From Solibacillus sp. R5-41 (GTDB lineage Bacteria; Bacillota; Bacilli; Bacillales_A; Planococcaceae): a DNA stretch of 64,000 nucleotides. Of the stretch, positions 2,497 to 55,197 are shown one piece after another. The stretch's first letter is position 1. Every line of letters starts with the position of its first letter. The notes beneath the pieces are model-generated. The model did not search any database, had not been told where the DNA came from, and was given only the letters and a program-made list of their open reading frames with translations. The stretch is taken from positions 3,154,001 through 3,218,000 of the forward strand of contig NZ_CP024123.1 of the NCBI RefSeq assembly GCF_002736105.1. Direction: 5' to 3'. The translations under genes and the position numbers were made by a program.

Positions 2497-2738
2497 ATCA
2501 ATTACGCCTCGGCTAACTCTTGTCCAGATTTTTTTTCGAGCAAGCTCAAAAAAACTGTGACATCCACCGGAGCCTTTGAACCAACACGATGTTGGTCACT
2601 CAGGCGTTGCCGCACGACGCGGTTTTATTAGCCTGAGTTCCCCTATTCAGTGGGGGTTCACCCCAACTGAATCATGTTAAATGAATACGTATTCATTATA
2701 TCATATTTTCATTTTTAGAACCTCGTGGAATTTCTTAA
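2497..2738 (-). repeat. Dispersed modular intergenic repeat, copy A
   Basis: Left end ATCAATTACGCCTCGG, then GTCCAGATTTTTTTTCGAG, TGTGACATCC, hairpin CCAACACGATGTTGG (2581-2595), CTCAGGC...GCCTGAG (2599-2636) enclosing GCCGC/GCGG, hairpin around CAGTGGGGGTT, and a GGAATTTCTTAA tail. The right half of the first palindrome is degenerate. Orientation is given as the strand on which the element follows the 3' end of a gene (here sdhB). See the other copies B-G. Confidence 0.85.
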
Positions 2739-6304: not shown

Positions 6305-6724
6305 ATGGAAGGGCACAAAATGAAAACGATTCCAACTTTTGGTTACGAAATCGTTCGCGATCATTTACTTACGTCAATTTTAGGAAAACATGAGGCAGAT
6401 GTCCTTTATTGGGGTGGTAAAGAAGTCGCTCGTCAATTCCCATTGTTTTCAATGGAAGAAGCATCTTCTTTTTTCATAGAAGCGGGTTGGGGACAACTCG
6501 CTATAGAGAAGGAATTGAAGGATGAGGCGCATTACATACTCACGACTGAAGACCCTGCATCATTAAACATCGAGCAGCGCTGTTTTCGATTAGAGGCTGG
6601 GTTTCTAGCAGAGCAAAAACAAAAAAATATTGGTCATTTAACGGAATGTTACGAGGAAAAAAACGTGAAGCACAATTGTGTTAAATTCATATTAAAATGG
6701 GATTTAAAAGAACCAATCCGCTAA
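6305..6724 (+). CDS. yslB: YslB-family protein (DUF2507)
   Basis: 139-residue soluble protein of unknown function, recognised by the pattern DVLYWGGKEVARQFPL, EEASSFFIEAGWG and the C-terminal FRLEAGFLAEQ..., which is shared with B. subtilis YslB beside sdhC. No catalytic motif can be named. The first ATG (6305) follows GAAAGAGG at 8-nt spacing and is preferred over the ATG six codons later. It is monocistronic: the own promoter candidate is at 6100-6127 and a terminator at 6743-6777. Confidence 0.85.
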   Translation: MEGHKMKTIPTFGYEIVRDHLLTSILGKHEADVLYWGGKEVARQFPLFSMEEASSFFIEAGWGQLAIEKELKDEAHYILTTEDPASLNIEQRCFRLEAGFLAEQKQKNIGHLTECYEEKNVKHNCVKFILKWDLKEPIR

Positions 6725-6797: not shown

Positions 6798-7292
6798 TTA
6801 GATGGACATTTTCTGCTGAACGAACATAAACTCATCATGCAATACATTGGCGGCTTGCATCATCGCATCTTGCGGCACGATGACCGACACTTTCACTTCA
6901 GATGCACTTAGCATCTTAATGGGAATATGTTCCTTCCCTAACCGCGCAAACACCCGTGCTGCTACTCCTGGACTAAAATTCATGCCCGCTCCGATTATTG
7001 ATATTTTCGCTAAACCTATTTCGAAATCAGCAAAACGAAAACCTAAAGATGCTTTACTCGCTTCTAATATTCGTAAACTTTCAGCAAATTTTTCCTTAGC
7101 AATCGTAAACGAAACGGTTGGTTTGACACCATCCATTACAGACTGCACGATCATGTCCACATTAATATTATTTTCCGCTAAAACACTAAATACTTCTGCA
7201 AGTGATGCAGTTTCATAAAAATCATAGCCAATCGTTAATCGAATTACATCCGCTTCATAAGCTACCCCGCACACCATTAAATTATTTTTCAT
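6798..7292 (-). CDS. Stand-alone aspartokinase beta-type regulatory protein (two ACT domains)
   Basis: 164 residues corresponding only to the C-terminal regulatory part of lysine-sensitive aspartokinase II. The sequence MVCGVAYEADVIRLTIGYDF, the NINVDMIVQS segment and LAKISIIGAGMNFSPGVAARVF align with the separately translated beta subunit of B. subtilis LysC. The amino-acid kinase catalytic domain is absent: upstream there is only a lysine riboswitch. The ATG at 7290-7292 is chosen over one ten codons earlier because AAAGGGG precedes it. It may regulate a kinase encoded elsewhere or bind lysine on its own; this is inference. Confidence 0.88.
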   Translation of the reverse strand: MKNNLMVCGVAYEADVIRLTIGYDFYETASLAEVFSVLAENNINVDMIVQSVMDGVKPTVSFTIAKEKFAESLRILEASKASLGFRFADFEIGLAKISIIGAGMNFSPGVAARVFARLGKEHIPIKMLSASEVKVSVIVPQDAMMQAANVLHDEFMFVQQKMSI

Positions 7293-7350
7293 TTTTAGTA
7301 ACCCCTTTATATTAGCACTCAAAAATAAGATTCGGACCTATTAATCCACG

Positions 7351-7588
7351 AAAAAAAGCGACCTTCCATGTTCATGGAAAGTCGCCGTCAAGACAAATAA
7401 TAAAGTTAATTGTTCTTTTTGGATAGCTCTCCAGAACATGCGCTCTGACAATTTTACATTTCTTAAATGCAAAACCAGCAATTTGTGCGAACAATACACA
7501 ATTCACTTCGGCAGTCTCCCCTTTCGAATGCATTCAACGGAATTGTCCTTCCTCATGCATCGTACTTTTGAACACTGCGCCTCTATCG
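7351..7588 (-). promoter_or_regulatory. Lysine riboswitch (L box) with terminator
   Basis: On the minus strand the leader starts with P1 GATAGAGGCGC (about 7577-7587), passes GAGGAAGGAC, GGGGAGACTGCCGAAGTG and GAGCGCATGTTCTGGAGAGC, and closes P1 with CTATC (7422-7426), as in known L boxes. The expression platform at 7351-7386 is a strong hairpin (GGCGACTTTCCAT / ATGGAAGGTCGC) with seven T. It should switch off the downstream ACT gene when lysine is bound. Confidence 0.93.
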
Positions 7589-7622
7589 ATTGAAATTATT
7601 AAATTAGTCTCACTCTAGCATA

Positions 7623-9416
7623 CTACGACTCGTTTTTCAATGACTGCTCTTGAAAATAGTGATGAATTGTTTCAGCTAGCTTTTTGGGTATGCCCGCTTC
7701 AATAAGCTGTAAAACAGTGGCTTCACGTATTCTTTTCACCGACCCAAAATGCTTCATCAGCTGTTGTTTACGCTTCGGACCAATTCCTTCTATGCCGTCT
7801 AATATCGAAACTATGGTATTCGCTTGCCGTTGCTGTCTTAAAAACGTAATCGCAAAACGGTGTACCTCGTCTTGAATGCGCTGCAATAAATAAAATGCAT
7901 CACTCGTTCTCATTAATGGAATTTGCTCCACTGGGTCACCGAACAATAATTGAGACGTATTATGCTTCTCATCCTTCGCTAATCCAGCAATCGGAATATA
8001 AAGACCTAACTCATCTTCTATTACTTCACGCGCAACTTCCATATGTCCCTTCCCACCATCAATAACGATTAAATCAGGCAACGGTAAATTTTCTCGTAAT
8101 ACACGTGTGTAACGACGTCGAATGACTTCTTGCATTGCGCCATAATCATCATGTTTCGCCGCTTCCCTCGTTTTATATTTACGGTACTCTTTTTTTAGCG
8201 GCTTTCCGTCCACAAAAACAACCATCGCTGAAACGGGGTCCGCACCGTGCATATGACTGTTATCAAATGCTTCAATGCGCATCGGAATAGGAATATTCAT
8301 TGCTTCACCTAGCGCCTCACACGCACCAATCGTTCGTTCCTCTTGACGCTCAATTAGTTGGAATTTTTCATGGATCGCAATATCTGCATTTTTCGAAGCT
8401 AAGTCAACCAATTCCTTTTTTGAACCTTTTTTAGGGATAACAATTTTAACATTCAAAAGCTTTTCTAATAAAACGCCATCCACTTGTGTAGGAATGAAAA
8501 TTTCCTTTGGAAGCATATGGTTCGGTTCATCATAAAAACGCCCAACAAATGTTAAAAATTCCTCTTCAGGTTCATTGTAAATCGGAAAAATGGATACATC
8601 TCGTTCGATTAACTTTCCTTGTCGAACAAAAAACACTTGCACACACATCCAGCCCTTTTCCACGGCATAACCGAATACATCGCGATTACTTAAATCACCC
8701 GTCACAATTTTTTGCTTTTGCATAATCTTTTCAATATGAGCAATTAAATCTCGATATTCCTTAGCTCTTTCAAATTCTAATTTTTCAGCAGCATCGAGCA
8801 TTTTTTGTTCTAAATCTTGCTTTACTTCTTCATAGCCACCATTTAAAAACTTCGCAATTTCATCAATCATTTCACTATATACATTGTTGTCAATTTCTTT
8901 CACACATGGTGCTAAACATTGACCTAAATGATAGTAAAGGCACACTTGCTTTGGAATTTTCGCGCATTTTCTTAATGGATACAAGCGATCTAATAATTTT
9001 CTCGTCTCATTTGCTGCAAATGAATTCGGATAAGGACCGAAATATTTGGCCTTATCCTTTTTGATCTTGCGTGTCGTTAAAATGCGCGGATATTTTTCAT
9101 TTGTAATTTTTATATACGGATAGGTTTTATCATCTGTTAGTTTAATATTATATTTCGGATCATGAAGCTTTATTAAATTTAGTTCTAAAATTAATGCTTC
9201 TAAGTCGCTTGAAGTCACGATATATTCGAGGTCCACAATTTCACTTACTAGACGGGCAGTCTTCCCATCATGGCTACTTGTAAAATACGAACGTACCCGA
9301 TTTTTTAATGATTTTGCCTTACCAACATAAATTATCGTCCCTTGGTGATCTTTCATCAAATAACAACCTGGATCACTCGGCAAAATTTCTAATTTCGCCT
9401 TAATATTTGCATTCAT
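7623..9416 (-). CDS. uvrC: UvrABC excinuclease subunit C
   Basis: Nuclease subunit of nucleotide excision repair, making the 3' and 5' incisions beside a lesion. Domain order: GIY-YIG nuclease at about 13-95 ([25 protein letters not shown]), cysteine-bearing linker, UVR motif near 205-235, RNase H-like nuclease in the middle to C-terminal third ([32 protein letters not shown]), and a helix-hairpin-helix end ([14 protein letters not shown]). Length 597 is normal for the family. Start ATG 9414-9416 follows AAGGTGATGG. It lies between lysC and trxA as in B. subtilis. Confidence 0.97.
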
Positions 9417-27510: not shown

Positions 27511-27761
27511 ATCAAATATGCCTCGGCATAATTGCGTCCGGAATCGGCTTTGTGTTGGCACAGGATGTTAGCCTAAGTTCGTCGCATCCATGCGACAACG
27601 GCTAACTGACCTGCATCATGCTGGCCTCCTTTCCGATTCTGTGACATCCGCCGGGGCTTAACTTATTTCAGTAATTGTTTAGATAAACACTGAAAACTAA
27701 CTTAAAATCCATTTTCATCTTACCACTTATATAGGTAGGATACTTCTACTGAAAAAAGTTA
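27511..27761 (-). repeat. Dispersed modular intergenic repeat, copy C (variant)
   Basis: Left palindrome here is ATGCC-TC-GGCAT, a compensated form of the ACGCC/GGCGT seen in copies B and F. The second stem is GGAATCGG/CCGATTC instead of AGATTTTT/AAAAATCT, and its interior is replaced by a nested hairpin (TTAGCC/GGCTAA around GTCGCAT/ATGCGAC, 27569-27608). TGTGACATCCGCCGGGG is conserved. The outer tail arms TTAACTTATTTCAGTA and TACTGAAAAAAGTTAA pair at 15 of 16 positions. The last TTA supplies the LysR stop codon. Confidence 0.85.
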
Positions 27762-40592: not shown

Positions 40593-40848
40593 AAAAAAAC
40601 CTCGCCCCCTAAAAAAGGGACGAGGACGAGTTTCGCGGTACCACCCTAGTTATTGCAAAAATGCAATCACTTCATTTGAGCTAACGACTCATTACGCCGG
40701 CAATCCTTTCACCAATTTTGGCTCCCGGAAGCTGCTCGCGGGGTGAACTTCATTATGCAATTTGTATGCAAGCTTGCAGTCTCGGCTCACATTTCCTAAA
40801 ACAAATTTCACATAATTACTCTTCCCGGTCAATGCATTTAGTAGTTAT
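40593..40848 (-). promoter_or_regulatory. T-box riboswitch, pheST leader
   Basis: Minus strand carries the T-box sequence AGGGTGGTACCGCG (about 40633-40646) and a terminator at 40593-40625 (CCTCG...CGAGG, then seven T). A TTC triplet at 40745-40747 fits the specifier for phenylalanine. Antiterminator formation on uncharged tRNA-Phe should allow pheS expression. Confidence 0.93.
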
Positions 40849-55000: not shown

Positions 55001-55197
55001 ATCAATTACGCCTCGACTTAATTGTGTCCAGATTTTTTTCGAGCATGCTCGAAAAGCTTCCCTAAAAATTCTGTGACATCCGCCGGGGCTTTAGGCCAAC
55101 ACGATGTTGGTCACTCAGGCGTTGCCGCACGACGCGGCGTTCTTAGCCTGAGATCCTTCTAAACAGTTGGGGTTTGAACCACTGCTGAATCAAGTCA
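55001..55197 (-). repeat. Dispersed modular intergenic repeat, copy E
   Basis: ATCAATTACGCCTCGACTTAATT, GTCCAGATTTTTTTCGAGC and GCTCGAAAAG, TGTGACATCCGCCGGGGC, CCAACACGATGTTGG (55094-55108), CTCAGGC...GCCTGAG enclosing GCCGC/GCGGC, GGGGTTTGAACC, then GCTGAATCAAGTCAG. It has the same middle module as copy A. The TCA at 55195-55197 is the complement of the dUTPase stop codon. Confidence 0.88.

Follow-up and report, generated by a model that had tools for sequence, protein, structure and literature searches.

Some α2β2 aspartokinases make a separate β subunit from an internal start. A role of this subunit apart from α has, to our knowledge, not been settled. In the α2β2 enzymes of Corynebacterium, Thermus, and Pseudomonas (PDB 3aaw, 2zho, 5yei), β is complexed with a catalytic α subunit. 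For aspartokinase II of Bacillus subtilis, the β subunit is annotated as lysCB (PMC5743806), and α is derived from the same gene. A different kind of system is the trypanosome prozyme (PMC5201418), a dead-paralogue regulator: a non-catalytic relative is kept alongside the single active enzyme that carries out the step.

The locus described here is part of a stretch of 64,000 nucleotides from Solibacillus sp. R5-41, referred to as the window. Its product resembles that of B. subtilis lysCB in being a two-ACT protein with a start and ribosome site of its own at a riboswitch-controlled position, but no α is encoded in the genome. Similarly, its predicted fold matches the regulatory subunits of the α2β2 systems, whereas the catalytic partner is missing and the α part of full-length relatives is degenerate. 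As with prozyme, a non-catalytic relative is found beside one enzyme predicted to be active in the same step; in contrast to prozyme, the dead domain has been discarded and a regulatory domain is left, whose action on the active enzyme is hypothetical. While the anatomy is known from the B. subtilis β subunit, the absence of α, its repeated loss, and its degeneration in relatives set this case apart. No earlier report of a β-only or pseudokinase LysC was found in the open-access literature, subscription papers being outside the search.

Anatomy of the locus and identity of its product

Where lysC would be expected, with uvrC on one side and a yslB-like gene on the other, lies a short open reading frame; in B. 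subtilis, lysC adjoins uvrC as well. The features of the locus, in window coordinates, are as follows.

6305..6724, forward strand: yslB-like gene (DUF2507, PF10702), downstream neighbour
6798..7292, reverse strand: β-only LysC open reading frame of 164 codons with two predicted ACT domains, ATG at 7292 and stop at 6798, assigned by Pfam, model matches, and predicted fold
7302..7308, reverse strand: AAAGGGG, read from the sequence as the ribosome-binding site, which lies 9 nt upstream of the ATG
7357..7386, reverse strand: intrinsic terminator of the riboswitch, a 13-pair stem followed by a T run (fold z = -4.35)
7416..7593, reverse strand: aptamer of a lysine riboswitch (L box), matching RF00168 over model positions 1-182 with 124.2 bits
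7612..7640, reverse strand: promoter-like site with extended -10 directly upstream of the aptamer, a consensus match only, such sites being no commoner in the region than in shuffles
7623..9416, reverse strand: uvrC, conserved upstream neighbour, an open reading frame that was the source of the species tree

The aptamer is full length, contains the conserved core, and scores above the RF00168 gathering score of 30. Together with the terminator that follows it, this bears out the initial annotation, which had described both elements as intact. The annotation had also given the gene its own ribosome site 60 bp after the terminator. The site itself is present, but the distance of about 60 bp applies to the start codon, so that the ribosome site lies about 45 bp after the terminator. 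Elsewhere in the 64 kb, the Bacillaceae-1 small RNA (RF01690) was detected three times, at 2581-2647 (reverse), 27557-27624 (forward), and 55096-55162 (reverse), and a T-box leader (RF00230, 107 bits) at 40613-40841 (reverse).

Pfam matches of the 164-aa protein are limited to the ACT families PF22468, PF13840, and PF01842, and the protein aligns only to positions ~246-406 of full-length aspartokinase models. Neither search detected a kinase domain, so that the amino-acid kinase domain with catalytic residues that marks an aspartate kinase enzyme is missing from this protein. The nearest solved structures by sequence are aspartokinase regulatory domains. Its two ACT domains are arranged as in aspartokinases, and the predicted fold (mean pLDDT 84.3) corresponds to that of the regulatory subunits in the aspartokinases from Thermus, Corynebacterium, Mycobacterium, and Pseudomonas. 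Effector-site positions mapped from C. glutamicum are partly conserved, a pattern that is not decisive for lysine binding.

At the position of the β start, most full-length relatives examined read MEKNLIVRGVAYE or close to it, and in most of them AAAGGGG, AAAGGAG, or a similar site directly precedes this internal start. Start and ribosome site of the window frame equal those inside the relatives' lysC, which indicates that the frame begins exactly at the ancestral internal β start. A mechanical listing of open reading frames gave the longer alternative start TTG 7322; ATG 7292 is favoured because of its Shine-Dalgarno site and its alignment with the internal start of the full-length relatives. 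Judged from sequence, the open reading frame is exactly the two-ACT β subunit of aspartokinase II. The earlier proposals that the gene keeps only the C-terminal two-ACT part and that the β frame has become the whole gene are thus upheld.

Aspartokinases of the genome and β-only genes among relatives

The genome is assembled as one contig of 4.28 Mb and is 99.99% complete. It encodes four PF00696 proteins, namely proB (glutamate 5-kinase), argB (acetylglutamate kinase), pyrH (UMP kinase), and an AKIII-type aspartokinase. None of these is a LysC α subunit that could serve as partner of β, and the PF00696 search of the whole genome revealed no LysC α or orphan kinase domain elsewhere. The AKIII-type protein matches NF006540 with 609 bits (cut-off 434) and keeps the motifs KFGGTSV, GEDNN, DRGGSD, and FTDVD. 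By these motifs it is the only predicted catalytic aspartokinase in the genome, which answers the question of further aspartokinases raised with the initial annotation. The genes dapA and lysA are also present. Two more lysine riboswitches were found upstream of a LysP-like permease gene and of amino-acid ABC transporter genes, both identified by reading the sequences. As these riboswitches precede two importers, β is probably one member of a small regulon for lysine scarcity that also includes the two uptake systems.

The survey of relatives covered 261 genomes from the order, and every genome listed is from a single family. A β region was recognisable in 198 genomes and absent from 63. Of the matches listed, nearly all are full-length, with genes spanning about 400-500 codons. 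β-only genes occur in six genomes from two genera: the window genome (G000), G062, G073, and G144 belong to one genus, G037 and G053 to another. In all six, the AKIII-type enzyme is the sole aspartokinase with a kinase domain. G062 is a sister species of the window strain (84% identity) with the same structure and a homologous junction. In a class-wide sample of Bacilli, no other β-only genes were found among the matches listed, the other open frames of which have at least about 400 aa. No recognisable LysC β region was found in genera g4, g9, and g18 and in part of g3 and g17; an AKIII-type enzyme is present in the LysC-less genomes examined (G003, G008, G018). Since 63 of the 261 genomes have no recognisable LysC, its function is dispensable for some of these organisms.

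The β-only genomes are interleaved with full-length relatives. In the uvrC tree, G144 groups with the full-length G108, G114, and G120 (support 99), G073 with G092 (82), and G037/G053 with G019 (95), while G000 and G062 form their own pair (100). In the AKIII tree, G144 again falls next to G108 (95), as does the G037 pair next to G019 (92), each tree being built from a single gene. The junctions also differ. In G144, a decayed α start (about codons 14-45) is fused to the last α codons, and this remnant is strong, with a score of 106 against a shuffle maximum of 48. In G073, the last α codons are kept, as shown by direct alignment alone. G037 has a weak trace collinear with the α 3' end (score 53, shuffle maximum 50). 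G000 and G062 have a common short leader and no α remnant above shuffled sequence, in accordance with the earlier statement that the α-specific catalytic region is gone. Interleaving and differing junctions point to separate losses; assuming no regain, α was lost independently at least three times, probably four. The comparison of the locus across relatives that had initially been suggested thus yielded mostly full-length genes, with β-only genes recurring in the sister species and in other lineages. Full-length relatives or a faulty assembly had been named as grounds for giving up the claim; most relatives are indeed full-length, yet the β-only form recurs in the sister species and in separate lineages.

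Some further loci deviate in other ways. In the full-length LysC of G133 (L145, G133:C68:171751-179751; genus g14), α is interrupted by a stop and a small deletion, with an open frame of 320 aa left; either α was inactivated recently, or the draft genome contains a sequencing error. In G126 (L135, G126:C1:2685778-2693778), an additional ~1.9 kb containing two open reading frames, possibly an insertion element, separates uvrC from lysC. The LysC β region at G028:C2:260528-261008 (g10) is split by a frame change, which is an error or a pseudogene.

Degenerate α and selection on β

In the family alignment, canonical LysC motifs are found in genera g2, g3, g5, g6, g8, g10, g12, g13, and g17. In seven other genera (g1, g7, g11, g14, g15, g16, g19), the equivalents of Glu74 and Arg151 (C. 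glutamicum numbering) are replaced in all 20 full-length LysC proteins tested, and the KFGGTS, RGGSD, and TDV motifs are altered in most of the same 20 proteins. The literature assigns Glu74 and Arg151 roles in catalysis and in contacting the substrate (PMC4691045, PMC8690038). Since both are lost throughout, the α part of full-length LysC in this clade is a predicted pseudokinase. According to one of the two papers, however, arginine mutants are still active, so that inactivity of α is strongly predicted rather than demonstrated. In the β tree, the degenerate-α genera cluster with moderate support (80), save for a long-branched g13 pair that is misplaced among them.

The two halves of these proteins differ in conservation. 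β is more conserved than α in all 190 pairs of the degenerate-α clade (mean identity 76.5% vs 53.6%), whereas in canonical genera both are about equal (67.8% vs 66.5%). Among 17 pairs from the window's genus, which are not independent, α has a median dN/dS of 0.111 and β one of 0.023. As α is already degenerate in full-length relatives, its deletion probably came after it had ceased to be an enzyme.

Selection after the loss of α was estimated from two pairs judged from their leaders to have a clear (G000/G062) or probable (G037/G053) common β-only ancestor. For β, dN/dS is 0.128 (bootstrap 0.072-0.212; dS 0.69) in G000/G062 and 0.198 (0.112-0.325; dS 0.94) in G037/G053, where part of the constraint would predate the loss if both genomes lost α separately. 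In a simple neutral simulation, the frame stays open in 13 of 2000 and 1 of 2000 runs, respectively. With an open frame and a rate of 0.13-0.20, the gene lacks the broken frame or near-neutral rate of a pseudogene. The β values are several times higher than those of uvrC in the same pairs (0.032 and 0.017), while the β part of full-length genes matches uvrC in constraint. β-only proteins are therefore constrained but clearly relaxed relative to β in full-length genes, and residues near the effector site are changed in some of them. The aptamer is intact in five of the six β-only loci and scores as well as those of full-length relatives. In G144 (L073:3025-3227), it lacks the 3' part (72 bits vs ~125), with β little changed; given this damage, the locus could be in the process of being lost.

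Possible functions of the free-standing β subunit

The best explanation, quite possible though short of probable, is that β has been retained as an ACT protein regulated by lysine, which would act non-catalytically on a partner, most simply AKIII. According to this proposal, the catalytic half of aspartokinase II would have become useless and then been deleted, while the regulatory half stayed as a free-standing protein. When lysine is scarce, the riboswitch would permit transcription of β alongside the two riboswitch-controlled importers. The two-ACT protein would form the usual ACT dimer, bind lysine when it returns, and then modulate its partner. The AKIII-type aspartokinase is the likeliest candidate as no other catalytic aspartokinase is left to start the pathway, although its own intact ACT domain argues against an action of β on it. 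The dispensability implied by the 63 genomes that have no recognisable LysC, the relaxation of β, and the aptamer damage in G144 also count against a retained regulator. These same observations, along with the frame change in G133 α, would be expected if LysC had become redundant with AKIII, so that α was eroded and repeatedly deleted and β is a harmless, slowly eroding relic with its own ribosome site. Such decay is a serious, though less likely, alternative. Against it stand frames that are open in six genomes, dN/dS values far below 1 at a dS of 0.7-0.9, and the retention of riboswitch, terminator, and ribosome site in the majority of β-only loci; β of full-length genes being as constrained as uvrC also speaks against it.

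An unlikely explanation is that β has a function unconnected with aspartokinases, such as the regulation of a transporter or of another lysine-pathway enzyme, which it already held as a separately made subunit and which let it survive α. The internal start and ribosome site conserved in full-length genes, the conservation of β where α is degenerate, and the riboswitch control in common with two importers are consistent with such a role. However, the neighbourhood indicates no partner, and aspartokinase regulation is the only role of the two-ACT fold in this form that we know of. It is highly improbable that the leader RNA is the selected element and the open reading frame a passenger: the aptamer is intact in five of six β-only loci, but the protein-level constraint, the conserved ribosome site, and the little-changed β behind the broken aptamer of G144 contradict this. 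An assembly error that conceals the kinase domain has a negligible probability and was rejected on the basis of the single-contig 99.99% complete genome, the homologous junction in G062, and the lack of an orphan kinase domain.

The reading of β as a retained regulator may extend beyond the β-only genomes. Tentatively, the riboswitch-controlled LysC of a clade of at least seven genera could have turned from an enzyme into a regulator, a pseudo-aspartokinase conserved chiefly in β, in which case β could stand alone and would tune AKIII or another partner to lysine, and the repeated deletion of α would show which half carries the function. The family looks like an enzyme-to-regulator conversion at several stages, from the canonical enzyme through degenerate α, α remnant, and β only to complete loss. 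The clade's full-length LysC proteins score as aspartate kinase in family models but probably lack activity, which would mislead metabolic models. Genomes that naturally have β without α beside one catalytic aspartokinase make the role of β testable without engineering.
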